Of a stretch of 64,000 nt of DNA, positions 15,927 through 63,515 are shown one piece after another; position 1 is the stretch's first letter, and each line of letters opens with the position of its first letter. The notes under the pieces are model-generated. The model was not told where the DNA came from. It worked only from the letters and a program-made list of their open reading frames with translations, and ran no database searches. The position numbers and the translations under genes were made by a program. This stretch comes from Pseudoalteromonas sp. GCY (lineage in GTDB: Bacteria; Pseudomonadota; Gammaproteobacteria; Enterobacterales; Alteromonadaceae), in contig NZ_CP068022.1 of assembly GCF_016695175.1 (NCBI RefSeq), positions 1,164,001-1,228,000 on the forward strand, written 5' to 3'.

Positions 15927-15945
15927 GTTAGTAAAAAACTGATCT
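15927..15945 (+). repeat. Dispersed motif GTTAGTAAAANNNTGATCT, copy 1
   Basis: An exact copy of the 14-base core (TTAGTAAAA-N3-TGATC) immediately upstream of the ribosome site of the DJ-1-type gene. A one-mismatch copy lies inside that gene at 16399-16417. Confidence 0.8.
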
Positions 15946-15958
15946 GTGGGAAGAAATA

Positions 15959-16534
15959 ATGGAAGTTGGTATTTTCATCTATGACGGTGCGGAGTGTTTA
16001 GATTTTTGTGGCCCGTTTGAGGTATTCAACACCGCAAAGCGATTTATCGAGACCCCGATTAATGTCAGCCTTGTCGCGCCAAGTCATGTTCCTGTAACCT
16101 CGCGTGGCGGCATGAGCGTAAACCCCCATTACAGTATCTACTCGCATCCAAAGTTTGATTTGCTCATCGTTGTCGGCGGACTTCATCACCAAATTTGCAG
16201 TGATCACAACGTACTTAATTGGCTTGCAGAAACAGCGAATCATACCTCTCAGTGCGCATCTGTTTGTACAGGTGTATTTTTATATGCCGAAGCAGGTCTC
16301 ATTGATGGTAAGCGAGTCACCACCCACTGGCAGGATATCGACGATTTGAGAGAGCAATATCCCTCTCTTGAAGTCGTTGAGGACGTAAGGTTTATTATGG
16401 ATCAAAATTTTACTAGCTCAGCGGGTATTTCAGCAGGTATTGATATGAGTTTAGAGCTGGTGAAAAAGCGCTTTGGGCAATCTGTTGCAAGAAAAACCGC
16501 AACTCAAATGGATTATGACTGGCCTAGAAATTAA
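15959..16534 (+). CDS. DJ-1/PfpI superfamily protein
   Basis: 191 residues of the class I glutamine amidotransferase-like fold. A nucleophile-elbow Cys is at residue 103 (ASVCTGVFLYAEAGL), followed by a THW motif (KRVTTHWQDID) and a SAGISAGIDMSLELV segment. The sequence resembles isonitrile hydratase-type proteins and the sensor domain of GlxA-like AraC regulators, but no HTH follows, so it is the stand-alone form. Substrate unknown. GGGAAG precedes the ATG at 15959. Confidence 0.85.
   Translation: MEVGIFIYDGAECLDFCGPFEVFNTAKRFIETPINVSLVAPSHVPVTSRGGMSVNPHYSIYSHPKFDLLIVVGGLHHQICSDHNVLNWLAETANHTSQCASVCTGVFLYAEAGLIDGKRVTTHWQDIDDLREQYPSLEVVEDVRFIMDQNFTSSAGISAGIDMSLELVKKRFGQSVARKTATQMDYDWPRN
16399..16417 (-). 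repeat. Dispersed motif, copy 2 (one core mismatch, inside CDS)
   Basis: The minus-strand reading is GCTAGTAAAATTTTGATCC, one mismatch to the core. On the coding strand it encodes Asp-Gln-Asn-Phe-Thr-Ser in the DJ-1-type protein. Confidence 0.5.
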
Positions 16535-16559
16535 TAATGTTGAGTCTCACCATTATTAA
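16531..16559. terminator. Hairpin between converging genes
   Basis: TTAATAATG (16531-16539) pairs with CATTATTAA (16551-16559) across an 11-base loop, starting at the stop codon of the DJ-1-type gene. No T-tract follows, so its role as a terminator is uncertain. Confidence 0.4.
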
Positions 16560-16576
16560 CTCTACTACACAAAGGC

Positions 16577-19500
16577 CTAGTCACTGCTGATACCTGCAAA
16601 CTCTAGCTCACTCAGGCGTTTTTTCGCAAATACTACGACTTTATCGTATTCACTTTGCGCCTGTTCTAAATGTGATTTACACTGTTCAGCTTGATGTTCA
16701 CGCGCATGGGCTTCTATTTTATCGAGCAAATCGAATAACGTTTCTGCGGCTAAATCACCGGCTTGGCCTTTAAGTGCATGACTGTAGCTTACTGATGCGT
16801 CACAATTACTATTTTTAATACTCAATCTAAGTTGCTGCATTTGATTTTCAGAGTCACTCAAGAACAAGGTGTACAACTTTTTAAGTAATTCTTTGTCTCC
16901 AGACAGTCGTTCGAGCACGTCAGCTTCGTTTATTGGCTGAGTAGCCTGTTCTTCTTCCTCGCTTTCGAAGGGGTGAATCAAGACGGAGTCGTCGCCTTTA
17001 GCATGCACACCTAGCGCATCTAGCACCTTAAATAGCTGCTCGACTACTACAGGTTTAGTAACAAACTCATCCATTCCCGCATTTAGACAACGCTCTTTTT
17101 CACCAGCAAGGGCGCTGGCAGTCATCGCAATAACGATTGCATCTTTGTACTTATCACCACCTTGACCCTGACGAATTGCTCTTGTGGCCTGATAACCATC
17201 CATGCCGGGCATATTGCAGTCCATAAAGATAGCATCAAAATCGACCTCTTGATGTTCAAATAGCAGTAATTTGTTCACTGCATCTTGGCCATCAACTGCA
17301 AAGCTAACTTTGGCCCCCTGCCCTTCTAAAATACCTTTTGCCACGATCCGGTTGATTTGATTATCGTCTACAACCAAAAAGTGGCAACCCGTCACCAAGT
17401 TACCACTTAACGCCACGGTATCACCTGACTTCTTCAAGCTAGGTTGCAATCTAATTGCTTTATTTAAATCAAATAGCGCGACAAACTCTCCAATCCGAAG
17501 AGGATCGGATATATGCACAATGTTGTCGGAATCGTTAATATGCTGAAGCTTGTCCCCCACCAAAATAAGTTTCTCAAATTGATTTTTAACTGATTTCACT
17601 TGAATGTAATCTTGCTCATTAGTGATGATGCATATATCACTATCCGCCCCCTTCTCAACGTACTCACCACCACATTTGGCAATAAGTTTAGCGATTGTGT
17701 CTGACTCCAATTTGGTTTTACTTAACACGGAGACCGTTTTGCCTGCTAATACTTCAGGCACGTTGATAGGCTTAGTTTGAGCACTAGAAAACGGCAATTC
17801 AAACCAGAACTTACTGCCTTTAAACTTCTCACTTTCAAAATGAATATGGCCGAGCATTTTTTCGACTAACTGCTTGCAAATTGAGAGTCCAAGCCCCGTG
17901 CCACCAAACTCGTTTGAAGTACTAGCAGATTCTTGGCTAAACGATTGGAATAGCTTGCTATGATTTGCTTTTTCAATTCCAACCCCAGTGTCTTCAACAA
18001 TGACTTTAAGCCATACGGTGTCGTCTAGCTGCTCTGTGGTGACGGACAATTTAACGTGACCTTTTTTAGTGAATTTAATCGCGTTGCTGAGGAGGTTATA
18101 AATTATTTGCTTAACGCGCGCGGCATCCCCACACAGCTCAATATGTTCTAAGCCAGTTTGGTCTACAATATAAGCGATCTTCTGCTCCTTAGCTTTTGCC
18201 GACATAGAAAGCGCAACATGTTCAATTACAGAGAGCGGGTTGAATGGTTCATTATCAATGTCTAGCTTACCCGCTTCTATCTTAGATAGGTCCAACACAT
18301 CGTTTATTAGCGATAAAAGCGTGCTTGAGCTAGTTTCCATCATCTCTAAATATTTGTGCTGCTGTTTAGTAACAGGCTCTTTCCTCACTAAGTTTAATGA
18401 ACCTAAAATACCATTAAGCGGCGTTCTCATTTCATGACTGATAGTAGAAATAAATGCACTTTTCACTTCTGACGCCTTAGCGGCTTTATCACGTGCGTGC
18501 ACCAGCTCTTTGGTACGCTCTTTTACTTCTTGTTCGAGTCGTTCATTTGCACCGACTAACTGCGCTTCCGCTTCTTTCTTCGCAGTAGTGTCTTCGACAA
18601 ATAACGCCACCCCCTGTATACGTTCATTTCCTGCATAGATTGGTGATAAGCTAAGTGAAAGCCAGATAGTTTCATTTGCATTAAGGTCAAGTTGCAGTGA
18701 TTTCGACTCCACCATTTCACCTTTCAATACCAAGTTGGCGTAGTGAAATAAAAACTGATGCACGGCTTCTGGCAGAAATTGCGAGTTGCTACCTAAACGA
18801 CTGCTATTTAACTGCTTAAAAAAGTGCTTTGCCGATGCATTGAAGCTAGTTAGTTTGAGATTAGTATCAAAACCGAGTACTCCGTCAGATGCACCATCCA
18901 AAATCGCTTTAAACTCTGCTCGGGTGGAATCGAGCACGCGTAAACTGCTGGTGTATTGCCAAAACGCAAAAAAAATTAAGGCAAATACACTACAGGCAAC
19001 GGCCAGTAAAACATAGGTCGTTAAACGTTTTTCGTTTAGACTTTGCTGATATTCAGAAAAAGAAATGAGATTAACCAGTTTGACGTTTAGGTCGTTAAAG
19101 TTGCCCCCTTCAACCTTGCTAATTAACGCTAAAAACTGTTCACCCGTTTGCTTTTCTTCCAGCAGTTGAACTTTATCGAACCATGGCGTAACGCTATACA
19201 ATGTTTGAAAGCTAATTTCGGGATTTAAATCTTTGCTATATCGCAGCGAAAATTCTGGGTGATAGATAAACGAATCATCAGTGCCTAAGATCATGACTTT
19301 TTGTATATCAGGAGCTTGAGAGACGATTCTGTTTACTATCTTCTCAGCATTGGTATTAATCACCAATACTCCAAACAAGTCATTCTCAATGTCGTATGTT
19401 GGTAGCGTAAAGCGTTTGGTCGGTTGAAAAGGCGTGACAACTTTCCCATGCTCTCGATTCAAGTTAATCACTGTGGAGTAAATAGTTCGTTCCGATAGCT

Positions 19501-19975
19501 GCAACGCTTGAACATAATAATCGTGCTGGCTTTTGTCTTGTAATTTGCTATCAGGGACCGTGATCACTTGACCGAGTTGCCGCTCGACTCTTACCATTTC
19601 CATACCAGAATGAGCGTCAATTAGGCGGATCTGATTAATGCCTTCATAAGAATACAGCATTGACCTAAAAATCGTGCTCAGTCGCGCACGCCAAACGTCA
19701 AGTTGAGTATTTTCTTGTGGGTCAATACCATCGTTTTTTTCAGCTCTGGCTATACCCTGAATTGGAGGGGTGTCTAGCAGAAAATAAAGAAACCGACGAT
19801 TGTCGTCAATTTCTCCCAAATAAATACTGTTTTGCGCCGAGTGAACCTGCTCTAACCGCTGGTAAAAGCTCTCGTTAAGGTCGCGATGGATACTATTTTC
19901 AAAATATAAGATGGCACTCACCATCACGGCGAGCAGTAGTGCAATAGCGCCCTTAGCAATATTGGAAGAAGACAC
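16577..19975 (-). CDS. BarA-like hybrid sensor histidine kinase
   Basis: About 1132 residues from a GTG at 19975, chosen because AGGAGAA lies just upstream. Order: N-terminal membrane helix; a large periplasmic sensor domain of dCache type (about 30-310); second helix (TYVLLAVACSVFALIFFAF); PAS domain; coiled coil; HisKA with FISTISHEMRTPLNG; HATPase with NLLSNAIKFTKKG and FGGTGLGL; a degenerate receiver-like segment; a true receiver (VVDDNQIN, MDCNMPGMDG, TKPV); and an HPt domain with SHALKGQAG. It can run a full intramolecular phosphorelay. The output regulator is not encoded nearby and the ligand is unknown. Confidence 0.93.
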   Translation of the reverse strand: MSSSNIAKGAIALLLAVMVSAILYFENSIHRDLNESFYQRLEQVHSAQNSIYLGEIDDNRRFLYFLLDTPPIQGIARAEKNDGIDPQENTQLDVWRARLSTIFRSMLYSYEGINQIRLIDAHSGMEMVRVERQLGQVITVPDSKLQDKSQHDYYVQALQLSERTIYSTVINLNREHGKVVTPFQPTKRFTLPTYDIENDLFGVLVINTNAEKIVNRIVSQAPDIQKVMILGTDDSFIYHPEFSLRYSKDLNPEISFQTLYSVTPWFDKVQLLEEKQTGEQFLALISKVEGGNFNDLNVKLVNLISFSEYQQSLNEKRLTTYVLLAVACSVFALIFFAFWQYTSSLRVLDSTRAEFKAILDGASDGVLGFDTNLKLTSFNASAKHFFKQLNSSRLGSNSQFLPEAVHQFLFHYANLVLKGEMVESKSLQLDLNANETIWLSLSLSPIYAGNERIQGVALFVEDTTAKKEAEAQLVGANERLEQEVKERTKELVHARDKAAKASEVKSAFISTISHEMRTPLNGILGSLNLVRKEPVTKQQHKYLEMMETSSSTLLSLINDVLDLSKIEAGKLDIDNEPFNPLSVIEHVALSMSAKAKEQKIAYIVDQTGLEHIELCGDAARVKQIIYNLLSNAIKFTKKGHVKLSVTTEQLDDTVWLKVIVEDTGVGIEKANHSKLFQSFSQESASTSNEFGGTGLGLSICKQLVEKMLGHIHFESEKFKGSKFWFELPFSSAQTKPINVPEVLAGKTVSVLSKTKLESDTIAKLIAKCGGEYVEKGADSDICIITNEQDYIQVKSVKNQFEKLILVGDKLQHINDSDNIVHISDPLRIGEFVALFDLNKAIRLQPSLKKSGDTVALSGNLVTGCHFLVVDDNQINRIVAKGILEGQGAKVSFAVDGQDAVNKLLLFEHQEVDFDAIFMDCNMPGMDGYQATRAIRQGQGGDKYKDAIVIAMTASALAGEKERCLNAGMDEFVTKPVVVEQLFKVLDALGVHAKGDDSVLIHPFESEEEEQATQPINEADVLERLSGDKELLKKLYTLFLSDSENQMQQLRLSIKNSNCDASVSYSHALKGQAGDLAAETLFDLLDKIEAHAREHQAEQCKSHLEQAQSEYDKVVVFAKKRLSELEFAGISSD

Positions 19976-20096
19976 ATTTTCTCCTTGGACAGTGAGGCAT
20001 AAAGACCCAAAATGCGTTTGCACTTAAGCACAAAGGGCATCTACAAGCAAACGCATTATTAAATCTAGTCCAAATAGAAACAAAGACAAAGATTAC

Positions 20097-20122
20097 TTAA
20101 CCTGAACTCGGGATAAGAAGTT
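20097..20122 (+). repeat. 26-bp direct repeat, left copy
   Basis: This 26-bp stretch starts TTAACCTGAACTCGGGATAA and matches 24 of 26 bases at 21964-21989. The two copies flank the hydroquinone reductase and pirin genes. A looser relative (ACCTGAGGCTGGGATAAG) occurs near 48346. Confidence 0.6.
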
Positions 20123-20129
20123 AGGTTAT

Positions 20130-21113: not shown

Positions 21114-21122
21114 GTAAACCCC

Positions 21123-26168: not shown

Positions 26169-26474
26169 ATGCCTAGTCGGGATAACACAAACAATAAGGC
26201 TATTTTGTACAGAGCTGAAGTGCTAGCACGCTTTTTCATCGCTATTTTCGGCGGCTATTACGTGACCGTTTTGGCTTCATCTTTGTTGGCTTTAACTTTA
26301 CCTACCCCGCGCCTAGATGCGCTTTTATATGCATTAACAACCGGCATCGTCTTTTACGCCATCGTTTTTATTTGGGTGTTTGGATGCCGCTCTTTTAGAA
26401 AAGTCTTTCTTGGCATGATCGGACTACTTTGTATTCTCTACGGCGCACTGACGCATTTTGGAGGCTCCCTGTGA
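26169..26474 (+). CDS. DUF3649 iron-uptake-associated membrane protein
   Basis: 101 residues with three predicted transmembrane helices and the DUF3649 pattern ARFFIAIFGGYYVTVLASSL followed by a DALLYALTTGIVFYAIVFIW helix. Family members occur at the head of siderophore-iron operons beside PepSY-TM and DUF3325 genes, as here. Its stop overlaps the next start by 4 bp (GTGA). GAGG precedes the ATG at 26169. Confidence 0.85.
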   Translation: MPSRDNTNNKAILYRAEVLARFFIAIFGGYYVTVLASSLLALTLPTPRLDALLYALTTGIVFYAIVFIWVFGCRSFRKVFLGMIGLLCILYGALTHFGGSL

Positions 26475-28054
26475 GAGAGTCATTTTTTCGCAGTATGACT
26501 TGGCTACACACTTGGGTTGGTTTACTCGTTTGTTGGTTGCTGTTTTTAATCTTTTTTGCCGGTACAGCGAGTTTTTTCAGACATGAGATCAGTCTGTGGG
26601 CACAACCTGCAACGCACCATCTACCTCATTACGATAGCACTCAACAAAATGAAACCGTCAAAAAGAGTATCGAACGGTTTCGAGATATAGCGCCAAACGC
26701 AGAGTCTTGGCGTATTGAAATGCCAACGGAGCGTCGCCCAAGCCTGCTATTGATGTACTCCGAAAAACCAGCCGAAGGGGAGAGACGTGGAAAACGTCAC
26801 TCGGAGTATCTCGACCCAGTAACGCTGGAGGCACTTCCTGAGTTTAGGGAAACTAAAGGGGGTAACTTTTTCTACCGCCTACATTTTGACTTGCATTACA
26901 TGAACGCTATCACCGCGCGTTGGATTGTCTGTTTTGCAACTCTGTTTATGCTAATTGCGCTTATTTCTGGCGTGGTGATCCATAAGCGCATTTTCAAAGA
27001 TCTATTCCAATTTAGAAACGGGAAAGGGCTGAGAAGTTGGCTAGACGCCCACAATCTTTCTTCCGTGGTGGCATTACCATTTCATATTATGATCACTTAT
27101 ACTGGCTTAGTGACGCTTATTTTTATGTTGCTGCCACAACCTGCTGAGCAGCGCTTTGAAGATACAAAAACGCTCCGAGCCGAACGCTACCCCTTTCTTG
27201 CTGCGATCCCTGAAACAGGACAACCATTGAAGGAGCTCGCATTAAATACAGCGTTAGATCATTATTTTACTAACTCTGGTGACGCACCGCTTCGCCGCAT
27301 TGTGATCTCATCGCCAGGGGATGCAAGCGCAACGATTAAGCTTTATGCCAATGCTCAACGTGCTGTTCAGGATGACCCACCAAGCTGGATGTATAGCGCG
27401 GCATCTGGTGAGCTGTTAAAAACGCACAATGTGACACTGTCTGGCGCTGAAAATCTCTACGGCGGAATGATAGCACTGCACACGGGCCGTTTAGCAGAGC
27501 CGCTTTTGCGTTGGCTGTACTTTGTCGCAGGATTGGCAGGCTGTGCCATGATTGCAACGGGTGCTGTTATGTGGGCAAAAAGACTACGCCAAAAGCTCAA
27601 AGGTGATGACAAGCCGGGTGTAGGCCTTAGGCTTGTGGAGTCGCTCAATTTAGGCACCATTATGGGTCTGCCAGCCGCAACGGCGATGTTCTTTTATGCA
27701 AACCGATTGCTTCCAATGGAATTAGCGGGACGTGCAGACAAAGAAGTTCTGGTGTTCTTTGTTACGTGGGGAGTATTCACTCTGGCTGCTCTATTTAAGT
27801 CGGATAGGCTAGCGTGGCTGCTCTCTGCGAAAGTAAATGCTATCGTGTGGGGCTTACTGCCTGTCGTAAACATGCTAACCACTGATGGCAGCATTGTGAG
27901 CTATTTCATTAATGGTCAGTGGGTATTATTTGGTTTTGATGTGATGGCTATTGGTATCGCGTTCGGTTTCTTGGTTCAAGCCAAAAAGCTCGGCAGTACC
28001 AAAGCAGCGCCAGCGACACCACGTCGCCAAGCAAAGCATGAGGTAAACGCCTAA
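26471..28054 (+). CDS. PepSY-associated TM protein (PiuB-like, iron-regulated)
   Basis: 527 residues from a GTG at 26471, chosen because GGAGG lies six bases upstream and the GTGA overlap with the preceding stop is typical of coupled translation. Four main transmembrane regions flank periplasmic PepSY domains, with conserved His in LHTWVG, YRLHFDLHYM, PFHIMITYTG and ALHTGR that may bind heme or coordinate metal. This class is linked to ferric-siderophore reduction or uptake at the inner membrane. Middle gene of the DUF3649/PepSY/DUF3325 operon. A copy of the dispersed 19-bp motif lies inside at 27256. Confidence 0.9.
   Translation: MRESFFRSMTWLHTWVGLLVCWLLFLIFFAGTASFFRHEISLWAQPATHHLPHYDSTQQNETVKKSIERFRDIAPNAESWRIEMPTERRPSLLLMYSEKPAEGERRGKRHSEYLDPVTLEALPEFRETKGGNFFYRLHFDLHYMNAITARWIVCFATLFMLIALISGVVIHKRIFKDLFQFRNGKGLRSWLDAHNLSSVVALPFHIMITYTGLVTLIFMLLPQPAEQRFEDTKTLRAERYPFLAAIPETGQPLKELALNTALDHYFTNSGDAPLRRIVISSPGDASATIKLYANAQRAVQDDPPSWMYSAASGELLKTHNVTLSGAENLYGGMIALHTGRLAEPLLRWLYFVAGLAGCAMIATGAVMWAKRLRQKLKGDDKPGVGLRLVESLNLGTIMGLPAATAMFFYANRLLPMELAGRADKEVLVFFVTWGVFTLAALFKSDRLAWLLSAKVNAIVWGLLPVVNMLTTDGSIVSYFINGQWVLFGFDVMAIGIAFGFLVQAKKLGSTKAAPATPRRQAKHEVNA
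27256..27274 (-). repeat. Dispersed motif, copy 3 (exact core, inside CDS)
   Basis: On the coding strand it reads AGATCATTATTTTACTAAC and encodes Asp-His-Tyr-Phe-Thr-Asn within the PepSY-TM protein. Confidence 0.75.
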
Positions 28055-28386
28055 TGGAATGGCTAACGTTTTTACTTTGCCTGCTAGCGTTTATGGGTTT
28101 TGCAGTAGCAAAACCCAATCACTATAAAGAAGTATTTGGTACACGTCCAAAAGGTAACGTAACAAGTCAATTAACCATTGCCGGCTGGCTCTGCCTCGGC
28201 GGCAGCTTGGCACTTGCTCTTAAAACTCAGGGGGCCTACGGTAGCTTAGAGTTTATTGGTTATATGACCTTGGCAGTATTACTACTTATCGCTATCTTTG
28301 CGACCAAACCTAGTTACTTCAGATCACTATTTTACCTAGTCATTATCGCTATGCTGCTCAGTACGCTGTATTGGATCATATTTTAA
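28054..28386 (+). CDS. DUF3325 membrane protein
   Basis: 110 residues, four predicted transmembrane helices, with the DUF3325 opening (LTFLLCLLAFMGFAVAKPNH) and KPSYFR near the third helix. Its ATG overlaps the preceding stop by one base. Third gene of the iron operon; the precise role of the family is unknown. A strong terminator follows 5 bp after the stop. Confidence 0.85.
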   Translation: MEWLTFLLCLLAFMGFAVAKPNHYKEVFGTRPKGNVTSQLTIAGWLCLGGSLALALKTQGAYGSLEFIGYMTLAVLLLIAIFATKPSYFRSLFYLVIIAMLLSTLYWIIF

Positions 28387-28390
28387 CTAA

Positions 28391-28414
28391 GGCGCCACTA
28401 ACGGCGCCTTTTTT
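28391..28414 (+). terminator. Intrinsic terminator of the iron operon
   Basis: GGCGCC (28391-28396) pairs with GGCGCC (28403-28408), followed by six T. A copy of the dispersed motif begins at the very next base. Confidence 0.9.
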
Positions 28415-28673
28415 AGATCACAATTTTACTAACATTCCTTTGTTAACTCTTTGAAACCACATCATTTAGCATAAAATATCAGCAATAATGGTGATATACA
28501 CCGCAAATTTACTAACTCAAACTAAGGTAGGTTAGTAAAATCGTGATCCAATGAGCCCAATTAGCTTAATCAGTTAGTAAAAATATGATCTGGTAGTCTT
28601 GTTCTCGGACTAGCTTAGTAAAATCCTGATCTAAGCGCCAAAAGAATACTATTGGTTAGTTAAATTCTGATCC
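28415..28673. repeat. Phased cluster of the dispersed 19-bp motif
   Basis: Contains an exact-core minus copy at 28415-28433 and four plus copies at 28531-28549, 28573-28591, 28614-28632 (exact) and 28655-28673 (one mismatch). Plus-copy starts are 42, 41 and 41 bp apart, separated by 22-23 bp of unrelated sequence. A degenerate minus copy (28498-28516) sits 83 bp from the first. Together they fill the otherwise empty 348-bp gap downstream of the leftward gene at 28735. Confidence 0.8.
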
Positions 28674-32677: not shown

Positions 32678-34333
32678 TTACTCACCTTTATTCCAATCCA
32701 GCTGCATATCCCATACATATCGGTGCTCTGGCTCTAGAGGCTGTTGAGAATCATCGACTTGTTCAAGCACATTACGCGCTTTTACTATGGTGGCGTCACG
32801 ACCAAATAGGTAACTTTGCTCTTTGACAATGGTCAAGTAGGCTTTATTCAGTGCCAGCGCACGTGGTTTTGATGGTGTGATCAATTCATAAAGGTTTTTC
32901 GCAGACTGCACTTTTTTGCTGTTTACCGTGCCATCTTCGTTAAACCAGCGCATAAGCATCTCTTGGTTTTGCCTAAACTCATCCCCGCCGCCAACACGCA
33001 TCATATAGGTCAAGAATTCGCCCTGCACTTCGCCTTTGTTAGGTACATCTTGCATCTCTTTTAAATTGATATAACCCCAACCCAGTTTGCCTTCAACTTT
33101 ACGCGCAAACGAGAAGGTTTGGTCATAGGTTGAGCCAATGGTTTTGTGACAACCATTACAAAAAGCAAGCTCTTGCTCATGTTGCGGACGAAGTGCACCA
33201 TTTTTGTCTTCAATATAACCGTTAATCGTCCAACCGAAGTTGTTATTGATCCCTTGGTCGCCCAAATAAAGCGTTTGAGGATAATTTTCGAATGACTTTT
33301 CTTTCGCTTCTCTATAGTAGGCAGCACCGAGCGACTGCTTAGATTTAAAATTGTGCTTTTTCATATAGCGCACTTCTTTCATTCTTGGCGCATTAAATAC
33401 TTGGCCATTATCATCCACTCCAATATAACGAACGGTGTGTAAAAACTCGGTGTCTTGTGGATATAACTGATGAGCAAGCTCGATAGTATTGGCATCACCA
33501 AGGTAACGTTCACTACGCAGCATGTTAGTGATCTGCGTGAGTTTGCCATCACCATTCAAATCTACGCCAACTCGCGATTCAGAAATAACTGGCGTTGATA
33601 TTTCGTCAAGCCCCTTTACAGCCATTTCAACTAGACTTAAGTTGGCAAGGTAGACGTCCTGATTATACGTTCCACCTTTTTCTCTAAAGGAGTCAGCAAG
33701 GCGGATCATGACATCCCCCGTAGAACCATTGGTCGGCCAGAAAGTACTAGGGAAAGGTTTATAATTGAATGCCACCCAGCCACTGCCATCCTTTGCTATA
33801 CCCAGCTCATCGAAGGCTTTTTCTGGATACGCCAAGTTGTTAAGCGGGGTGATCTCACCTTTCCAATCAGGGTTATTTTTTAGTTTTTTGATGAAAGGGG
33901 TGTAATTATCTTGATTGACCCAGTTAGTAATATCTTGATCTGAGATACCTTTGATAAGCTCAGAGCGATCTTTAAACAGGTTTTTCCAGTGGTTTTTAAA
34001 TCCAAGATCGGAAAACTCATAGGCGCCTTGTAAATTGGCATCGCGCATCATGTTTGGTCGGTTTTTTTCATCATATGATTGATGACAGGCATAGCAAGGA
34101 TTATTCACGCCATCCGTTTTGGTGTAACATTGAGGTGGGATCACTGATTCAGGGTTATAGACTTCATTGTGCTGCATAAATGCGGTCGCAGGAATATCAT
34201 CACCCTGTTTATAAGGTGCTGTAGTTTGCGCCGACATAAGTGTGGTATTGGTTAGCCCTTGAGTCTGTTCATCATTACAACCAAACAAGGCTACGCTCGT
34301 CAATGCCACTAGAATTAGGCTAACGTATTTCAT
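32678..34333 (-). CDS. Diheme c-type cytochrome lipoprotein
   Basis: 551 residues. Lipobox LFGC (Cys19) and two heme c sites: CYACH (80-84) and CNGCH (about residue 390, FCNGCHKTIGS). A DLNGDGKL loop could bind Ca2+. Exported and lipid-anchored, it may pass electrons in the periplasm or at the cell surface; partner unknown. It lies downstream of the DUF839 lipoprotein gene, but a strong terminator between them argues for a separate or attenuated transcript. Confidence 0.82.
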   Translation of the reverse strand: MKYVSLILVALTSVALFGCNDEQTQGLTNTTLMSAQTTAPYKQGDDIPATAFMQHNEVYNPESVIPPQCYTKTDGVNNPCYACHQSYDEKNRPNMMRDANLQGAYEFSDLGFKNHWKNLFKDRSELIKGISDQDITNWVNQDNYTPFIKKLKNNPDWKGEITPLNNLAYPEKAFDELGIAKDGSGWVAFNYKPFPSTFWPTNGSTGDVMIRLADSFREKGGTYNQDVYLANLSLVEMAVKGLDEISTPVISESRVGVDLNGDGKLTQITNMLRSERYLGDANTIELAHQLYPQDTEFLHTVRYIGVDDNGQVFNAPRMKEVRYMKKHNFKSKQSLGAAYYREAKEKSFENYPQTLYLGDQGINNNFGWTINGYIEDKNGALRPQHEQELAFCNGCHKTIGSTYDQTFSFARKVEGKLGWGYINLKEMQDVPNKGEVQGEFLTYMMRVGGGDEFRQNQEMLMRWFNEDGTVNSKKVQSAKNLYELITPSKPRALALNKAYLTIVKEQSYLFGRDATIVKARNVLEQVDDSQQPLEPEHRYVWDMQLDWNKGE

Positions 34334-37226: not shown

Positions 37227-37769
37227 ATGAATACAGCACAGAGCAAAAAAATACTAACTCATGGTTTGGGTGTAGCAACGGGTAAAGTTGCGTTTTATAT
37301 TGAACATCCACCAATCATAGAGCCTTATAATAATTTGATGCAAGTCAGTGCGTTAGCCAGTGGGGAGATCGAACATATTAATGCTCATTGCGGCAACGGT
37401 TGGCGGAAAATCTTCAATGTTTTTGCCAAGTTTTTATTTGCAGCAAAGCTGCCAGATCACGATATTACTAACTATCCAACTTGGCAGTCATATCGTGATA
37501 GCGCGTTACTTCAAGCTTCAAGTCAGGAAGCCCTGCTCTTCTCAACACCTGATTTTTCAACAAAAACATACGATTGGCATATTATTGCAGGACGCACCTA
37601 CGCGAAATCACTACTTAGAGATCAGGTTTTTACTAACAATCTAGTTTGGCTGGATGATGAGTTCGCTGTTGACTATAACTTACGTCTTATTATTTCGCCA
37701 TTTTTGGATTATCGCCAACTTAGTAACAAAAAAATCAATAGGTTAGTGGATATAATAAGACAAGGTTAG
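37227..37769 (+). CDS. Conserved-looking cytosolic protein, unknown
   Basis: 180 residues without signal peptide or transmembrane helix; mixed alpha/beta composition, opening MNTAQSKKILTHGLGVATGK and ending in a basic helix (SNKKINRLVDIIRQ). I recognise no motif. Two copies of the dispersed 19-bp motif lie inside it (37454 and 37619) and four more in its 3' flank, making it the gene most associated with that motif. Divergent from blc, with 174 bp between. Confidence 0.65.
   Translation: MNTAQSKKILTHGLGVATGKVAFYIEHPPIIEPYNNLMQVSALASGEIEHINAHCGNGWRKIFNVFAKFLFAAKLPDHDITNYPTWQSYRDSALLQASSQEALLFSTPDFSTKTYDWHIIAGRTYAKSLLRDQVFTNNLVWLDDEFAVDYNLRLIISPFLDYRQLSNKKINRLVDIIRQG
37454..37637 (-). repeat. 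Dispersed motif, two copies inside the unknown gene
   Basis: At 37454-37472 (one core mismatch; coding strand AGATCACGATATTACTAAC, encoding Asp-His-Asp-Ile-Thr-Asn) and 37619-37637 (exact core; coding strand AGATCAGGTTTTTACTAAC, encoding Asp-Gln-Val-Phe-Thr-Asn). Confidence 0.7.
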
Positions 37770-37808: not shown

Positions 37809-37967
37809 AGATCAAATTTTTACTAAGTAAAATACTGATCTACCTTCCGCATCATAGTCATTGAGATCAGAGTTTTACTAACTTTTTAGAAAGAATTGAT
37901 AGATAAAGCGCGGTGACGCCAGTGGCGGAGCAGCAATTGACTAGGTATAGATCACTATTTTACTAAC
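37809..37967. repeat. Intergenic cluster of the dispersed motif, with a dyad
   Basis: Minus copy 37809-37827 (exact) overlaps plus copy 37823-37841 (one mismatch), making a dyad AGATCA-N3-TTTTACT-A-AGTAAAA-N3-TGATCT over 33 bp; further exact minus copies at 37864-37882 and 37949-37967. These fill the 293-bp gap between two converging genes; the dyad could act as a bidirectional transcript hairpin. Confidence 0.75.
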
Positions 37968-38062: not shown

Positions 38063-38728
38063 CTACTGTTTATCTACCACAAAGCCCGCAAATCCAAGGG
38101 CTTTAAAGAAAGGTTTAGCAATGCCAAAACCTGCGATGTCTAGCAGCTCTGCAAGGCGCATTTTATCCACGGGGTAAAACTCATGCTCTAAATTCACCCT
38201 CATGCGCTGCTCACCAACATCAGTCAGCCCAAGTTGTTTGCAAACGATTAACTGCGCTTCACGTTCAAAGCTTGTCGCAGGTTTTTCTAAGTCGGCAATA
38301 AAAAGACGCCCATCCGACTTTAGCTGCTCACTCATTTGTTTAAACAAGCTTGCTTTATCGCCGTTATCTTTTACAAAGTGCATTACCAGCAAGCACAGTA
38401 TTGCATCTGCTTGATAGGCCTGTGGTGAAATCGCGCCATGATGGATCTGCACGCGCTCCTGTAGGCCTAACTTAGTAAAATGCTGATCTGCAATCGCCAG
38501 CATATCAGCAGATACATCTTGCGCTATAAACCACCAACTCGGGTTTAGCTGAGCAAGCTCTACAATTTCTTTGCCTGTCCCTGCACCCACAACCAAAATG
38601 GTTGCGCTATCTGGGTAAAGTGCTAAAAGTTGTGCCCCGGTAAGTTGGTGAATTAACGCATAGCCTGGCACAAGTTTTGTGATCCTTGAGTCATAGTTTT
38701 GGGCTTCTTCGCCCGTGAAAGTCGGCAT
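38063..38728 (-). CDS. Class I SAM-dependent methyltransferase
   Basis: 221 residues with a Rossmann-fold SAM site: motif I ILVVGAGTGKEI, acidic loop FIAQDVSADML, motif II GAISPQ..ADAILCLLVMHFV and a post-motif GRLFIADLEKP. Resembles ubiE-like small-molecule methyltransferases; substrate unknown. Its start lies 10 bp after the sbcC stop, so it is probably the last gene of an sbcD-sbcC transcript. One copy of the dispersed motif is embedded at 38471. Confidence 0.85.
   Translation of the reverse strand: MPTFTGEEAQNYDSRITKLVPGYALIHQLTGAQLLALYPDSATILVVGAGTGKEIVELAQLNPSWWFIAQDVSADMLAIADQHFTKLGLQERVQIHHGAISPQAYQADAILCLLVMHFVKDNGDKASLFKQMSEQLKSDGRLFIADLEKPATSFEREAQLIVCKQLGLTDVGEQRMRVNLEHEFYPVDKMRLAELLDIAGFGIAKPFFKALGFAGFVVDKQ
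38471..38489 (+). repeat. Dispersed motif, exact core, inside the methyltransferase CDS
   Basis: Plus strand CTTAGTAAAATGCTGATCT; on the coding (minus) strand it encodes Asp-Gln-His-Phe-Thr-Lys, in the same frame as the copies in four unrelated proteins. Confidence 0.75.
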
Positions 38729-58728: not shown

Positions 58729-58777
58729 GAAAAGCCGTTATTATCCTTGTAATTAAGATTGGTCAAAGTTAGTATCC

Positions 58778-58792
58778 ATCCGAATTTCGGAT
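58778..58792. promoter_or_regulatory. LysR-type operator candidate
   Basis: ATCCGAA-T-TTCGGAT is a perfect 15-bp inverted repeat between the MATE relic and the LysR gene, 12 bp upstream of the latter, and fits a T-N11-A core. Confidence 0.6.
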
Positions 58793-58804
58793 AGGTTAAT
58801 CATT

Positions 58805-59677
58805 ATGCATTGGACACTCGATCAACTTGAAGCCTTTGTCACCGCCGTCAGATTGGGGTCATTTTCAGCTGCGGCGAGACACTTGGGAAAAGCACAATCT
58901 CGGGTCAGCACCGCAATTGCCAATCTGGAAGCCGATCTAGGCTTTGCACTTTTTGACCGCTCTGCCAGACTACCTGTGTTAAATCAAGCTGGTCTCGATC
59001 TGTTTAAAGAAGCCGAAGCGGTGCTCATGCAGTGCCAGCGACTGCAATCAAGAGCCAATTCTCTTAATAGTGGCGAAGAGGTGTCTCTCACTGTTGCCAT
59101 GGATGAAGCAGTGCCTATCATCGCATTTGAATCATTGTTTGAACGATTAGCTCAGCAATTTCCGCTATTAAAATTAGCCATTATTAATGGCTCCCAAGAC
59201 GACATTGCACAATGGGTGAGCGCAAAAAGGGCAGAAATAGGCATTTTATTTCACCAAAAACCATTGCCAGAATCGCTGGATTTCACTTCGATAAACAGCT
59301 TTAAACAAATCTTGATCTGCTCCCCTCATCACCCGCTTGCACAACATTCTGCCCCGAGTATTGAAGAGTTAAACCAACATCGGCAGCTCGTAATACGCGA
59401 CCGTATTGGTAATACACAGTCACAAGCTATATCCACAAACCACTGGTACATTGACAGTTACTATTACATCATGGGTTTAGTCATTAGAGGCGTTGGTTGG
59501 GCATTAGTACCTGAACATGTTGTCAACACACCGTGGTACATGGGCGAACTGTTCGAGCTATCAACCGAGCATATCCCTAACCCTCTAGTCGTCGAAATGG
59601 GCATAGTACAACGCAGAGATCAAAGCAAAGGCCCTATATTGCAGTGGCTTTATAACGAAACAGCTAACTTATTCTGA
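58805..59677 (+). CDS. LysR-family transcriptional regulator
   Basis: 290 residues. N-terminal winged HTH (LDQLEAFVTAVRLGSFSAAARHLGKAQSRVSTAIANLE) and a C-terminal periplasmic-binding-like effector domain (LRLKLAIINGSQDDIAQWV-type strand, IGILFHQKPLP). Divergent from the MATE relic and probably its former regulator. Other targets unknown. Confidence 0.92.
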   Translation: MHWTLDQLEAFVTAVRLGSFSAAARHLGKAQSRVSTAIANLEADLGFALFDRSARLPVLNQAGLDLFKEAEAVLMQCQRLQSRANSLNSGEEVSLTVAMDEAVPIIAFESLFERLAQQFPLLKLAIINGSQDDIAQWVSAKRAEIGILFHQKPLPESLDFTSINSFKQILICSPHHPLAQHSAPSIEELNQHRQLVIRDRIGNTQSQAISTNHWYIDSYYYIMGLVIRGVGWALVPEHVVNTPWYMGELFELSTEHIPNPLVVEMGIVQRRDQSKGPILQWLYNETANLF

Positions 59678-59874
59678 GTAAACCTATACTGTCAAATTAA
59701 AGCCATATAGGCTCTGCATAGGCTGGTATTTTTTCTACACTGATGGTTAAATTGATCTGTTTTAGCAAACACCAGTAACAAAAGTTCACATTTACATAGT
59801 AGAGTGGAATTAATACTGAGAACAAATTTAGGAGCACGTAGTCTTAATGTTTAAGACTGCAGTTAGGATACATT

Positions 59875-60384
59875 ATGTTTGATAAAAATACGCTTATAGA
59901 AGCCTACGAAAACGTTTTAATTACGCTCATTAAAAAGCGTATCAACGAGTTAAAATTTTATGTAAATCAAAGTACTTATTCTCATATGTCGTTATCTGTT
60001 GAGTTTTGGCATTACGATGTAAATTGGAATATCTACAGCCTGCCCGAAAGCCGTTTCGAACAACATAAAAACGTTGCTTCAGACGAGTTTATCATCTTGT
60101 CTGACTTTGAAGATGATTGTCCAGAAGTCAGTAAACTGAGAGACATTTTCGAGAGCTGGGAGAATATAGAGCTCGTTAAAGATGAGGACGAGAATATGGA
60201 TCTGTTGCTCAAGCTATCTCATGAAGCGCTCGCCGAAGCACTATGCGGAAACGAAGTAAAACCACTATTACTAGACATCTTTGCTGAAAATAAAGCGCTG
60301 AAAAATAAACCGCTTAACGAGCTTATCAAAGTAGAAGATCCGGACGGACGTTTTGATCTCAACTTTGTAGAAGCTGTTGCTTAG
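59875..60384 (+). CDS. Acidic cytosolic protein, unknown
   Basis: 169 residues, strongly acidic, no signal peptide, mostly alpha-helical. AGGATACATT precedes the ATG at 59875. The layout (ENVLITLIKKRINELKFYVN, then VEFWHYDVNWNIYSLPES and a DEFIILSDFEDD block) resembles small immunity- or DUF4303-like proteins, but I do not recognise a family with confidence. No toxin partner is evident next to it. It ends next to an imperfect hairpin at 60448-60482. Confidence 0.6.
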   Translation: MFDKNTLIEAYENVLITLIKKRINELKFYVNQSTYSHMSLSVEFWHYDVNWNIYSLPESRFEQHKNVASDEFIILSDFEDDCPEVSKLRDIFESWENIELVKDEDENMDLLLKLSHEALAEALCGNEVKPLLLDIFAENKALKNKPLNELIKVEDPDGRFDLNFVEAVA

Positions 60385-60447
60385 CAAACCGTCAAATAAG
60401 CCTAGATAATATGTTTACCGGCTTGGGTTAAAGCAAGTAAATTTCAC

Positions 60448-60482
60448 TGTGTAAACCCCTTATTGTAAAGGGGCTTTACACA
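60448..60482. terminator. Hairpin between converging genes with the GTAAAGGGG-TTTAC dyad
   Basis: TGTGTAAACCCC (60448-60459) pairs, with one bulge, to GGGGCTTTACACA (60470-60482). The right part also contains GTAAAGGGGCTTTAC, a variant of the dyads at 36499 and 42796. Confidence 0.45.
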
Positions 60483-60719
60483 CTAGTTCGTCTCACGCGC
60501 TTTTGTGATTGCAGCTTGGATCGCAGCTTTGGCCTGTGGGCTGTTTTTCCAACAGGTTGTTCGCAACATAGAAGCGACCCGCTCAGCAATTTCTTCAACT
60601 TCATAAGTCGCAAGCTCGCTCAAACTGCAAATACCGATTTCTTCAAAACGCTTTATCACCGTAGGGCCGACTCCCTTGAGGGCCAGTAAGGTGTTTTTTT
60701 CACTTTCAGAGAAAACCAT
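60483..60719 (-). CDS. Small helix-hairpin-helix (Cdd1-like) protein
   Basis: 78 residues. A clear HhH motif, LKGVGPTVIKRFEEIGICSL, with GxGxxxxxRF, then helices and a Cys in RTTCWKN. Resembles the pathogenicity-locus Cdd1 family of small HhH proteins and the C-terminal half of other DNA-binding proteins. Probably DNA- or protein-binding; function unknown. Gene starts at the ATG at 60719. Confidence 0.75.
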   Translation of the reverse strand: MVFSESEKNTLLALKGVGPTVIKRFEEIGICSLSELATYEVEEIAERVASMLRTTCWKNSPQAKAAIQAAITKARETN

Positions 60720-60756
60720 AATTCAGCTATCCTTTTCTTTATCAAAACGGTCAACA

Positions 60757-61035
60757 TTAACGCGATAATATTGAAATTCTAGCATTATCTTGGCTTGAGA
60801 AGTCTGGATCAACATAAATATACATTCTTGTGATCAAGTTATCAGAGAATTCGAACACACTACAAAAACGGCCAGACGAAATTTGATTATCAGGCCAGTG
60901 CGTACCATCACGCATCACGCCGCCTTCTTGTCCTTCAACAACAAGGTTTTTTCCAGACACAATGAAATTAAAATACGTAAAATAAAGTCCGATGACGATA
61001 ATCAACCCCAACTTACTTTTCTCTACACAAAGCAC
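60757..61035 (-). pseudogene. SnoaL-like (NTF2) fold protein, N-terminally truncated
   Basis: The frame carries the C-terminal half of a SnoaL/NTF2-like protein: FNFIVSGKNLVVEGQEGGVM, then RDGTHWPDNQISSGRFCSVF and DNLITRMYIYVDPDFSSQDN. About 50-60 N-terminal residues are missing; the first possible start is a GTG at 61035 followed by unrelated hydrophobic residues. No matching N-terminus was found upstream in other frames. Probably a remnant; alternatively a shortened protein. Confidence 0.55.
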
Positions 61036-61107
61036 GCATTGTATACCTCGAAAGGGAATGGTAACTTATTGATGAATTTACGTTTAAATTTATTGAAAGA
61101 GAGCTCA

Positions 61108-61599
61108 ATGTTCAAGCTAAGACCGTTCCAAGCCAATGATGTTGACAACATGGTCGCGATTTTGAACGATCCCGATGTAGTTCGGTATTTATCAACAAAA
61201 ATTCCGCAACCTTACACCGAGCAAGATGCCATGTGGTGGGTAAATGAAGGCAGTAAACACGGCTATGTTCGGGCGATTTGCGATGGTCAGCAGCTTATCG
61301 GCTGTATAGGTGTTAACCCTGGCGAGTTTGAATATGAGCGCTCTGGTGAAATAGGCTATTGGCTCGCAAAAAGCCATTGGCGCAAAGGAATTACTCATAA
61401 AGCCATTTTACATATTGTGTCAGAGGTATTTAACGAGACCAATATAGAACGGATCTTTGCCGCAGTATTTGACGACAATCATGCATCAATGAAGCTACTA
61501 GAGAAGTCAGGTTTTGAGCAAGAAGCGGTGTTAAAACGCGCTATATTCAAAAACGAGCGTTTCTATAACAATCACATTTTTGCCTTACTAAAGCCTTAG
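61108..61599 (+). CDS. GNAT-family N-acetyltransferase (RimJ/RimL-like)
   Basis: 163 residues from the ATG at 61108 (AAGAGAG just upstream); an ATG at 61072 would add 12 residues. The MFKLRPFQANDVDNMVAILN opening, GEIGYWLAKSHWRKGITHKA (acetyl-CoA loop) and NHASMKLLEKSGFEQEAVLK are typical of RimJ/RimL-like acetyltransferases of ribosomal proteins or small molecules. Substrate unknown. Open frame extends further upstream without support. Confidence 0.88.
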   Translation: MFKLRPFQANDVDNMVAILNDPDVVRYLSTKIPQPYTEQDAMWWVNEGSKHGYVRAICDGQQLIGCIGVNPGEFEYERSGEIGYWLAKSHWRKGITHKAILHIVSEVFNETNIERIFAAVFDDNHASMKLLEKSGFEQEAVLKRAIFKNERFYNNHIFALLKP

Positions 61600-61683
61600 G
61601 TATGCAGCTGCTTAGCTCAACCGTAAATCGGCTACCCTAGCTGCTAAGTAGCTCCATATTAATTTGTTGGCTTCATTATTAAC

Positions 61684-62439
61684 CTAGACCAAAGTAAGCG
61701 CTATCTCTAGCGACTCAATCTGCTTTTTTAAGCTTGGATTGATTTCTCCATCAGTAATAATTGTGTCAATTTCGTTAGCTGTAACAATCTGATAAGTAGC
61801 GACTTTATCTAGTTTATGGCTCGGGCCCATAATCACAGTGTGATCGCTTTGACGAATGGTCGCAGAGAGGATCTCCGCTTCTTCTATATAACTTGCACTA
61901 AAACCATGGTGAATGTGGAACGAGCAAATCCCCATAAAAACAATATCAAAACGGATCCGTTTCACCATTTCGATCGCCGTCATGCCTACCACCCGCATTG
62001 CAGGTTTAAACATAGGGCCACCTAACACAATCACATCCACTAATGAATGGTAGGCCAGCTCTTTGGCGATTAGTGGACAACCCGTAACCACCGTCAGCGG
62101 CATATTTTTAGGTAAGTGCTGAGCCAAATAACGGCACGTCTCGCCAGAATCAATCACTATCGTTTGTCCAGGCACGAGCATCGCCAAAGCAGGTTCAATA
62201 TAACGAATTTTACTGGTATCGGGTTTATCTAAACGCTCGATATAGTCAGGAGTATTATCCTGCAGCGCTAAAGCGCCACCATGAACACGCCGCAGTAGCT
62301 TAAGTTCAGCTAGCTTGTTTAAATCCCGACGGATTGTGTCTTCGCTCACATCAAGCGTTTGCGCCAAGGACACTGAGGTGATCCGCCCTTGTAAATTAAG
62401 CTGATCGAGAATGAATTGATGACGTTCTGCCAATAGCAT
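61684..62439 (-). CDS. DeoR-family regulator of sugar metabolism
   Basis: 251 residues from the ATG at 62439 with AGGA seven bases upstream. N-terminal DeoR HTH (ERHQFILDQLNLQGRITSVS, SEDTIRRDLNKLAELKLLRR) and a sugar-phosphate-sensing domain with SGETCRYLAQHL and SATIRQS. Divergent from a HAD sugar-phosphatase-like gene. Several ATGCAT and GCATGTT elements lie between the two starts (62441-62559), candidate operators. Confidence 0.9.
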   Translation of the reverse strand: MLLAERHQFILDQLNLQGRITSVSLAQTLDVSEDTIRRDLNKLAELKLLRRVHGGALALQDNTPDYIERLDKPDTSKIRYIEPALAMLVPGQTIVIDSGETCRYLAQHLPKNMPLTVVTGCPLIAKELAYHSLVDVIVLGGPMFKPAMRVVGMTAIEMVKRIRFDIVFMGICSFHIHHGFSASYIEEAEILSATIRQSDHTVIMGPSHKLDKVATYQIVTANEIDTIITDGEINPSLKKQIESLEIALTLV

Positions 62440-62440
62440 T

Positions 62441-62559
62441 GCATGTTCCTGCATGTTTTTGCGTAATTTTACTTGAAAAAGTTCGAGATACAAGCGTATT
62501 ATTTGCACATACATGCATAATAAAGCCGGTTTAATATCAACAAACGCCTGTTTATGCAT
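62441..62559. promoter_or_regulatory. Repeated GCATGTT/ATGCAT elements, DeoR operator candidates
   Basis: GCATGTT occurs twice 10 bp apart (62441 and 62451), and ATGCAT occurs at 62513-62518 and 62554-62559, 41 bp apart. All lie between the divergent DeoR and HAD starts. Confidence 0.4.
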
Positions 62560-62583
62560 GAAACATTATCATAAGGAGTAAAA

Positions 62584-63231
62584 ATGGCACTTAATTCACT
62601 CAACCTGAACCATTATCAGGGATTGATATTCGATATGGATGGCACACTTGTTGATTCTGAAGTTGCAGTACGACAGGCCGTCGCGCCTTGGTGTGAGAAA
62701 CATCATGTCGATTTAGAAATGGTATTAACTACGGGCCGAGGTGCACGTTTCAAAGACTTTATAGAACAATTTACTCCGCATTTAGATTGCCAGCATGAAG
62801 TCGAGCTGTTGGAACAAGCAGAAGCCGACCTTGCCCATACCGTAACAGCCATTCCTGGAGCTAAATCGTTTTTAAGCGAAATAAAAGCACAGCAACGCAA
62901 GTGGGCCGTTGCAACTTCTGCAAATCGTCACAATGCAATTGCACGACTCACCACAGCAGGTTTACCTATTCCTGAAATATTAATTACCGCAGATGATGTT
63001 GGGCAAGGTAAGCCTCACCCTGAGCCATTTTTATTGGCGGCCAAAAGATTGGGAGTGGCAACCTCTCGCTGTCTTGCATTTGAAGACTCAGATCAAGGGG
63101 TAAGATCCGCACTTAGCGCAGGCTGTGACGTAGTCGTAGTTAACCATTTTTGCACCATTCACCACGACCATATTGTTGCCCGTATCAATCACTATCAGGA
63201 CATCTACTTATCAGAGGAAGTAAGCGAATGA
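62584..63231 (+). CDS. HAD-IA sugar phosphatase-like protein
   Basis: 215 residues. Motif I DMDGTLVDS (Asp17/Asp19), helical cap, motif II VATSANRH, motif III GKPHPEPFL, motif IV FEDSDQGVRSA; these fit the YfbT/HxpA subgroup of sugar-phosphate phosphatases. GGAG precedes the ATG. Divergent from and probably regulated by the DeoR-type protein. The next gene overlaps its stop (ATGA). Confidence 0.9.
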   Translation: MALNSLNLNHYQGLIFDMDGTLVDSEVAVRQAVAPWCEKHHVDLEMVLTTGRGARFKDFIEQFTPHLDCQHEVELLEQAEADLAHTVTAIPGAKSFLSEIKAQQRKWAVATSANRHNAIARLTTAGLPIPEILITADDVGQGKPHPEPFLLAAKRLGVATSRCLAFEDSDQGVRSALSAGCDVVVVNHFCTIHHDHIVARINHYQDIYLSEEVSE

Positions 63232-63515
63232 AAACATGGCTGACAGGCTTTTATCAAACGAAAGATACCTACTGGGATTTCGCCGGTGTATTCTTCGGCG
63301 GTATCGGTTTTATCGCATTATTCGGCCAGCTACTCAGTGAACTTGAGCGCCAAGGCCCAACCAACTTGTCCTTTACGTTTTTAATCGGGTATGTGTTGGT
63401 GTTTAGTTTTTGGCTGATGTATGGGCTGAGATTTCAGCGAATGGCAATCATTGTTACCAATGTACTTTGCCTACTTTTACAGATCTTAATTTTACTAACT
63501 GCCATTTTGCGTTGA
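63228..63515 (+). CDS. Small membrane protein, unknown
   Basis: 95 residues from the ATG at 63228 with GAGGAAG upstream, overlapping the HAD stop. Three predicted transmembrane helices (about 15-35, 45-65, 73-93) and a short N-terminal cytoplasmic stretch (MKTWLTGFYQTKDTYWDFAG). No family recognised; co-transcription with the HAD gene is likely. A one-mismatch copy of the dispersed motif lies at 63481-63499 within the last helix. Confidence 0.65.
   Translation: MKTWLTGFYQTKDTYWDFAGVFFGGIGFIALFGQLLSELERQGPTNLSFTFLIGYVLVFSFWLMYGLRFQRMAIIVTNVLCLLLQILILLTAILR
63481..63499 (-). repeat. Dispersed motif, one core mismatch, inside CDS
   Basis: Coding strand AGATCTTAATTTTACTAAC, encoding Ile-Leu-Ile-Leu-Leu-Thr in a frame different from the other intragenic copies. 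Confidence 0.5.

Follow-up and report, generated by a model that had tools for sequence, protein, structure and literature searches.

The stretch of DNA analysed here (the window) comprises 64,000 nt of Pseudoalteromonas sp. GCY, C1:1164001-1228000, and contains repeated copies of a short motif that lie both inside and between genes, the former including genes for a DJ-1/PfpI-family protein, a PepSY_TM protein, a DUF6942 protein and a methyltransferase. The motif core was searched as TTAGTAAAA-N3-TGATC, which reads AGATCA-N3-TTTTACTAAC on the opposite strand. Its copies, listed below in window coordinates, are interpreted further on as probable iterons of a chromid replication initiator.

15928..15944, plus strand: exact copy of the putative RepA-type iteron, 14 bp ahead of the DJ-1/PfpI-family ORF
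16400..16416, minus strand: putative iteron, one mismatch, within the DJ-1/PfpI gene (15959-16534)
17055..17071, plus strand: iteron-like, two mismatches, within a histidine-kinase gene (16577-20023); may be chance
27257..27273, minus strand: putative iteron, exact, within the PepSY_TM gene (26429-28054)
28322..28432, minus strand: left arm of the cluster near 28 kb, with sites at 28322 (two mismatches), 28374 (one mismatch) and 28416 (exact)
28532..28672, plus strand: right arm of the cluster near 28 kb, with sites at 28532, 28574 and 28615 (exact) and 28656 (one mismatch)
33924..33940, plus strand: putative iteron, one mismatch, within ORF 32678-34333
37455..37471, minus strand: putative iteron, one mismatch, within the DUF6942 gene
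37620..37636, minus strand: putative iteron, exact, within the DUF6942 gene
37810..37966, no single strand: intergenic cluster, sites at 37810 (minus), 37824 (plus, one mismatch), 37865 (minus) and 37950 (minus)
38472..38488, plus strand: putative iteron, exact, within the methyltransferase gene (38063-38728)
63482..63498, minus strand: putative iteron, one mismatch, 3' of a HAD-hydrolase gene and within a 121-aa ORF

The two arms of the 28-kb cluster are divergent, the left having spacings of 52 and 42 bp, with its sites at 28322 and 28374 overlapping the end of a DUF3325 gene, and the right a spacing of 41-42 bp. The 121-aa ORF around the site at 63482 gave no Pfam match. The sole Rfam match in the window is a Mn riboswitch, unrelated to the motif sites.

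Altogether the window holds 11 exact copies, 7 with one mismatch and those at 17055 (plus) and 28322 (minus) with two, and these 20 copies at ≤2 mismatches compare with a mean of 0.80 and a maximum of 4 in 100 dinucleotide-preserving shuffles. A sequence-only reading of the same DNA had listed all 11 exact copies, each of which was recovered after allowing for a leading G counted in its coordinates (the core begins one base further on); its five one-mismatch copies were likewise confirmed, but two more, at 28374 (minus) and 33924 (plus), had been missed. Its description of clusters near 16, 28 and 38 kb, in both orientations, between genes as well as inside them, is borne out. It had also called the motif dispersed; the motif is real and non-random, but its distribution is regional. 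Across the whole genome (5.47 Mb) 17 exact copies occur against 0 for the reversed control pattern, and 16 of them fall within 101 kb (C1:1179928-1281005), a stretch that ends at ori2 beside repA. The seventeenth, at C2:3446475, is part of a cluster on the main chromosome, where 10 copies are found at ≤1 mismatch, 6 of them packed into one 383-bp stretch. The genome-wide count is thus not near random, and copies exist outside the window. That reading had guessed the genus correctly as Pseudoalteromonas, and the count it had proposed in related genomes found exact copies in 60 of 60 genomes of a genus sample (at most 17 in any of them), with 2 matches to the reversed control over all 60; elsewhere in the family 2 of 76 genomes had any exact copy (3 in total; reversed control, 3). 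The position weight matrix of the motif is asymmetric and non-palindromic, the sites include GATC, and the flanks of the copies are mutually unrelated, with nothing shared past the core.

The genome consists of two contigs, C1 of 1,291,188 bases and C2 of 4,181,162 bases, and C2 is the main chromosome because dnaA sits at C2:16. On C1 a ParA-like gene, a ParB-like gene, the gene of a 404-aa protein and tus (PF05472) lie side by side; C1 is the Pseudoalteromonas chromid, and the 404-aa protein corresponds to RepA in the published layout and is identical to the RepA of P. flavipulchra. In P. spongiae and P. tunicata, truncation experiments identified RepA plus ori2 as the chromid replicon (PMC7858055; this and the other papers are cited for the parts of their text available to us). 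A scan of contigs for RepA gave 83 places, the best 80 of which were retained and correspond to 74 distinct loci with 83-100% identity, 73 titled Pseudoalteromonas and one from a MAG. Every one of these 74 ori2 loci, drawn from the best 80 of the 83 places, carries 4-8 motif copies at ≤2 mismatches in the ~600 bp upstream of repA. The ori2 of our genome holds eight copies at ≤3 mismatches, spaced less regularly than those of the other clusters (33, 45, 83 and 97 bp), together with 3 DnaA boxes (TTATNCACA), and the DnaA boxes between motif copies are conserved in the ori2 consensus (73 loci). When every neighbour of the clusters in our genome was taken in, all 20 same-strand neighbours ≤110 bp apart fitted a 10.5-bp period (R 0.77; matched by 0 of 20000 random sets), which persists for the 23 same-strand neighbours ≤200 bp apart (R 0.74).

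The modelled fold of RepA has RctB, the initiator of V. cholerae chromosome 2, as its best match, with RepE and Pi also among the top matches, at a middling model confidence (pLDDT 75) and low TM-scores to RctB (0.37/0.49); the model suggests that RepA has the winged-helix initiator fold of RctB and RepE. This match came from the fold search alone, as a sequence search against solved structures returned nothing and RepA had no sequence-based match to RctB. RepA is ~27% identical to the IncA/C RepA, and a search for it in phages gave no match. Of five plasmids encoding RepA paralogues, four bear similar GATC repeats of their own, placed 5' of rep beside different partition genes (in one case a PRTRC-type ParB, in another ParA/ParB), and the fifth paralogue replicon (G004:C12) has no evident repeats. 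Among the four named plasmids that encode a RepA paralogue, a single one has the chromid motif itself, which there lies 3' of rep next to repeats of another set. Several features expected of an iteron origin are seen: repeats by the initiator gene, helical-turn spacing over the clusters of our genome taken together, DnaA boxes and, in the model, a winged-helix Rep fold.

Initiator-type sites also lie near the origin but outside it, as in a datA-like titration locus. When the 165 exact chromid copies of 15 genomes whose chromids are closed or long (6-16 per chromid, ori2 included) were placed relative to ori2, 42 fell ≤0.7 kb from it, 122 on the parA side at up to 184 kb, and one on the repA side (G002, 7.7 kb from ori2). 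The window's copies, 54-101 kb from ori2 on the first-copied arm, contribute 11 of the 12 exact first-replicated-arm copies of our genome. Along our chromid, the 14 samples taken between 210 kb and 1.11 Mb all have a negative GC skew (in one of them only -0.002), as do all the stretches at 1.124-1.288 Mb; the skew is positive at 1.279-1.291 Mb and mixed over three samples at 0-152 kb. This fits a fork running from ori2 toward the parA side, and agrees with the unidirectional replication published for most of the genus (PMC7858055). dif2 lies on the repA side, 14-15 kb from ori2, in 8 of 14 genomes, and 14-412 kb away across all 14.

Conservation of the copies inside genes was assessed in all 12 Pseudoalteromonas chromids of a plasmid collection, picked by genes alone and not by the motif; an earlier test, biased by stretches picked for listed exact matches, had given near-perfect conservation of 37620, 38472 and 27257. 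The PepSY copy at 27257 is exact in two near relatives and has an orthologously placed counterpart (≤2 mismatches) in 10 of 10 distant chromids, in which the gene itself is 55% identical and the core 92%, a value reached by 6 of 1570 null windows; at third codon positions the core scores 97.5% against 36%. The DUF6942 copies at 37455 and 37620 are present in 0 of 10 distant chromids, though kept in the two near relatives, and the methyltransferase copy at 38472, also kept in near relatives, in 0 of the 6 distant chromids covered. On the gain or loss of single copies, a point that the sequence-only reading had raised, this comparison of 12 chromids indicates that some have been gained and lost between lineages. 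Some arm positions are thus under genus-wide selection while others turn over, and the absence of three of the four tested in-gene copies from distant chromids shows single arm sites to be dispensable.

On the main chromosome, the C2 cluster lies between fba, which encodes fructose-bisphosphate aldolase, and a porin gene, within a gap of 528 bp, and comprises 8 copies once those with two mismatches are counted. In each of the 60 genomes of the genus sample, our own among them, fba could be found, and an array lies 3' of it in all 60, adjoining in 59 and ~2 kb further 3' in G016. With the array taken as the densest 450 bp of each stretch, a survey of the 3' side of fba alone found the same geometry in 60 of 60 genomes, a minus arm and then a plus arm as read from fba, with an extra minus site at the end in one genome. 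The first site lies a median of 82 bp past the fba stop codon (range -6 to 1991), and at ≤2 mismatches the arrays hold 3 sites in 2 genomes, 4 in 11, 5 in 24, 6 in 16, 7 in 4 and 8 in 3. A single conserved main-chromosome locus, as expected of a crtS-type site, is present across the sample, and at the same threshold 252 kb sampled from our own main chromosome contained no 450-bp segment with more than one site. Exact main-chromosome copies outside the array are single, 4 in 12 closed genomes (G045, G048, G002 and G046), with one further such copy in G008. Spacing within the array is mostly 31 bp, 194 of 266 same-strand neighbour distances being 30-32 bp (≤3 mismatches) in genomes that are related and whose events are not independent. 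The array consensus used the 54 of 60 arrays that span <330 bp. GATC is mostly followed by C in the array (216 of 318 sites) and by T at ori2 (360 of 440) and on the arm (107 of 143), and exact sites make up 14% of array sites versus 38% of ori2 sites. One genome, G001, has the array and lacks RepA; because minD is also absent, its chromid has probably not been lost but is absent from the assembly.

The array lies 544-925 kb from dnaA in 15 closed or near-closed genomes. Its distance to dif1 exceeds that from ori2 to dif2 in all 14 genomes allowing both measurements, by 187-409 kb in 13 and by 695 kb in G039, whose dif1 match looks misplaced; in G002, treated as bidirectional, the excess is 181 kb. 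The dif sites were located by a sequence pattern that was then refined, and dif1 was taken as opposite ori1 in two genomes. Chromid arm length correlates with the array-to-dif1 distance (r 0.94) and with main-chromosome half-length (r 0.95) in 11 of the 15 genomes, those left out being G002, for which no dif2 was found, G017 and G058, both without a dif1 match, and G039, whose dif1 is odd. The position of the array is compatible in 14 of 14 genomes with a crtS-like trigger that acts with a delay and leads to synchronous termination, but it constitutes no independent evidence because main-chromosome half-length correlates equally well, chromosome size predicting the position just as closely. 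A further point against is the variation of the lag (187-409 kb).

We interpret the motif as the iteron of RepA, serving in three roles, as origin, as datA-like sites along the chromid arm and as a crtS-like array on the main chromosome, and assign this reading a probability of roughly 0.78. From the site distribution, conservation, phasing and genomic positions that were directly observed, and from the fold similarity of RepA, we infer that RepA binds the motif. The sequence-only reading had considered a site for an abundant DNA-binding protein, and a DNA-binding site fits, but the protein would be the replicon-specific RepA and not an abundant nucleoid protein. At ori2, between parA2 and repA, RepA would load on the iterons amid the DnaA boxes and the origin would open. 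The sites on the first-replicated arm (~3-184 kb from ori2), once duplicated, would soak up RepA and restrain re-initiation. Duplication of the divergent fba array by the main fork, at a fixed point of the cycle, would then license chromid initiation, such that main chromosome and chromid finish together; the array thus probably times the copying of the chromid to that of the main chromosome. Titration by the arm sites and the trigger function of the array, including its sign, are likewise deduced from this arrangement, as is a methylation step. In one possible chemistry, the fork would strip RepA off the array, hemimethylated GATC sites would temporarily be unable to rebind it, and the released RepA would be passed to ori2. 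Such a methylation switch is conceivable because the sites contain GATC and a dam gene is found in the genome; it is a guess, given that V. cholerae RctB binds the iterons solely when they are methylated and crtS without methylation (PMC11711613).

The main rival to the trigger model accepts the same RepA sites and reverses the sign of the array, which would restrict the amount of free RepA as a datA-like sink or as a handcuffing partner. Because crtS is unlike iterons and the Pseudoalteromonas array is built of ori2-type iterons with a nearly invariant GATC, the array's role in titration may be purely negative; V. cholerae chromosome-2 iterons outside ori2 are indeed inhibitory (PMC3937223), and genuine crtS does not resemble them (PMC11711613). 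A sink, however, needs no fixed locus, no fixed divergent geometry and no distinct base after GATC, all of which are kept in 60 of 60 genomes whereas several arm sites turn over, and the more natural place for one, near ori2, is already occupied. We consider this reading rather unlikely, though it deserves to be taken seriously.

Far less probable is that the motif is a parS-like centromere site of the chromid's ParB2. The copies adjoin parA2-parB2 and lie on the same side of ori2 as these genes, chromosomal parS sites likewise lie near the origin, and no perfect palindrome of 12-18 bp repeated at least three times was found in the 164 kb around ori2 to serve as an alternative parS. Against this, the motif is non-palindromic and arranged in tandem arms phased at 10.5 bp, a chromid ParB has no reason to maintain a single conserved main-chromosome array, and the RepA-paralogue replicons carry their analogous GATC repeats 5' of rep beside different partition genes. 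It is more doubtful still that the motif is a Ter site at which the Tus encoded beside repA would trap forks. The adjoining tus gene speaks for it, as does the TTAGTA of the motif, which resembles the border of the Ter sequence of E. coli. Also in its favour, no homologue turned up when P. tunicata was searched with the ter of E. coli (PMC7858055). Ter sites must, however, be polar and near the terminus, whereas the motif forms divergent arm pairs at the origin and at mid-replichore of the main chromosome, and dif2 lies on the repA side, where one of 165 exact copies sits.

The remaining suggestions of the sequence-only reading, an uptake signal, an RNA-level element or a mobile mini-repeat, would account for many copies on both strands within and between genes and for the gain and loss of some single copies, but can practically be set aside, given the regional distribution and near-absence outside the genus (an uptake sequence is expected in hundreds of copies, not 17 in 5.47 Mb with 16 in 101 kb of one replicon), both orientations in one cluster with no Rfam match at the sites, unrelated flanks, and fixed places across the genus at ori2 and fba and, in 10 of 10 distant chromids, in the PepSY gene.

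With RepA iterons in three roles as the preferred reading, the analysis offers, for the timing of the Pseudoalteromonas chromid, a precisely located candidate site, a candidate protein to bind it and an arrangement shared by 60 of 60 genomes. Synchrony of termination in the genus was measured in 2021, when no crtS-like site was found and the mechanism was left for study, and in 2025 V. cholerae was called the sole species with an identified timing mechanism for a second chromosome (PMC7858055 and PMC11711613, respectively, in the text available). We recognised no report of RepA iterons or of a main-chromosome site in Pseudoalteromonas in the parts of the open-access literature available, and among the matches listed for the motif letters no title concerned Pseudoalteromonas or chromosome replication. 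The odds are about even that Pseudoalteromonas evolved its own chromosome-to-chromid checkpoint, apart from Vibrio, in the form of a divergent GATC-iteron array read by replication and hemimethylation. If so, an inter-chromosome checkpoint would have evolved convergently and could arise by the placing of origin iterons on the main chromosome, and different plasmid-derived chromids would have converged on a layout of origin, early sink and main-chromosome trigger. It would also suggest probing the main chromosomes of other multi-chromosome genera with the chromid's own iterons.

Among known systems, the closest counterpart is crtS and RctB of V. cholerae, which share with the present system one conserved main-chromosome site, apparently for a chromid initiator with the RctB/RepE fold. 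crtS lies ~800 kbp from ori1 (PMC5854411) and the Pseudoalteromonas array 0.54-0.93 Mb from dnaA; the delay after crtS is given as ~200 kbp (PMC6090056), to be set beside the excess to dif1 of 187-409 kb in 13 of 14 genomes. The two differ in make-up, crtS being a 62-70-bp site, unlike iterons and bound independently of Dam (PMC3937223, PMC11711613), and the Pseudoalteromonas array consisting of inverted GATC iterons. The arm sites recall E. coli datA and the RctB titration sites, which in V. cholerae span 74 kb at a distance of ~40 kb from ori2 (PMC3937223), in that initiator-type sites are scattered across tens of kb on the side of the origin that is replicated early; unlike these, the Pseudoalteromonas copies are more numerous, often form phased clusters and, with few exceptions, lie to one side of an origin that is mostly unidirectional. 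With the plasmid systems of RepE (F), Pi (R6K) and IncA/C RepA, ori2 shares repeats beside rep, helical phasing, DnaA boxes and, as modelled, a winged-helix fold. Plasmid initiators are said to bind origin iterons exclusively (PMC11711613), whereas the Pseudoalteromonas set also occupies the main chromosome.

On the parB2 side of ori2, the chromid origin, a six-copy motif cluster on the P. shioyasakiensis chromid has counterparts in the sampled Pseudoalteromonas genomes G012, G021, G022, G025 and G048, where exact motif copies are similarly placed, some 3 kb from ori2. No motif cluster occupies this ~3 kb position in the GCY genome, which carries one farther out.

L234:2706-3015 (P. shioyasakiensis stretch), six-copy cluster just 3' of a parB2-like gene
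C1:1265944-1266246 (GCY chromid), motif cluster 15 kb from ori2

The chromid motif also occurs on a 144-kb plasmid encoding a RepA paralogue (contig G008:C3; pKCTC22325), with three exact copies spaced 250-254 bp apart 3' of rep, separate from the plasmid's own repeats, which lie 5' of rep as seen in G008:C3. This plasmid may listen to, or compete for, the chromid initiator.

L208:11025-11545 (G008:C3) and L228:1906-2426 (pKCTC22325), chromid-motif region

RepA itself is split by a stop codon in G023, reflecting either a broken gene or a sequencing error, and three genomes encode an additional, distant RepA-like gene (27-28% identity). In G017 and G033 this gene shares a contig with the chromid RepA, and in G017 the repeat TTTCTAACCAAA lies nearby as the gene's own repeat.

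G023:C7:471413-472625, RepA in two pieces
G017:C2:15739, G033:C36:142624 and G003:C333:40167, second, distant RepA-like gene

A large secondary replicon of Photobacterium sp. GJ3 encodes a relative (46%) of the window's DUF6942 gene, which carries two proposed iterons. Elsewhere in the window, a manganese efflux pump gene directly follows a manganese riboswitch.

Photobacterium sp. GJ3 secondary replicon 1012153-1012656, DUF6942 relative (H48)
window 11630-11799, + strand, yybP-ykoY manganese riboswitch (RF00080; Rfam match, 51.5 bits)
window 11807-12370, Mntp manganese efflux pump gene

Besides motif copies, ori2 contains conserved GATCAGATCT doublets with TTTACTAA half-sites alongside.

L020:12578-12830 = C1:1280578-1280830, GATCAGATCT doublets adjoining TTTACTAA half-sites, within ori2

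These elements may be regulatory sites of a second class, comparable to the 29/39-mers of Vibrio.
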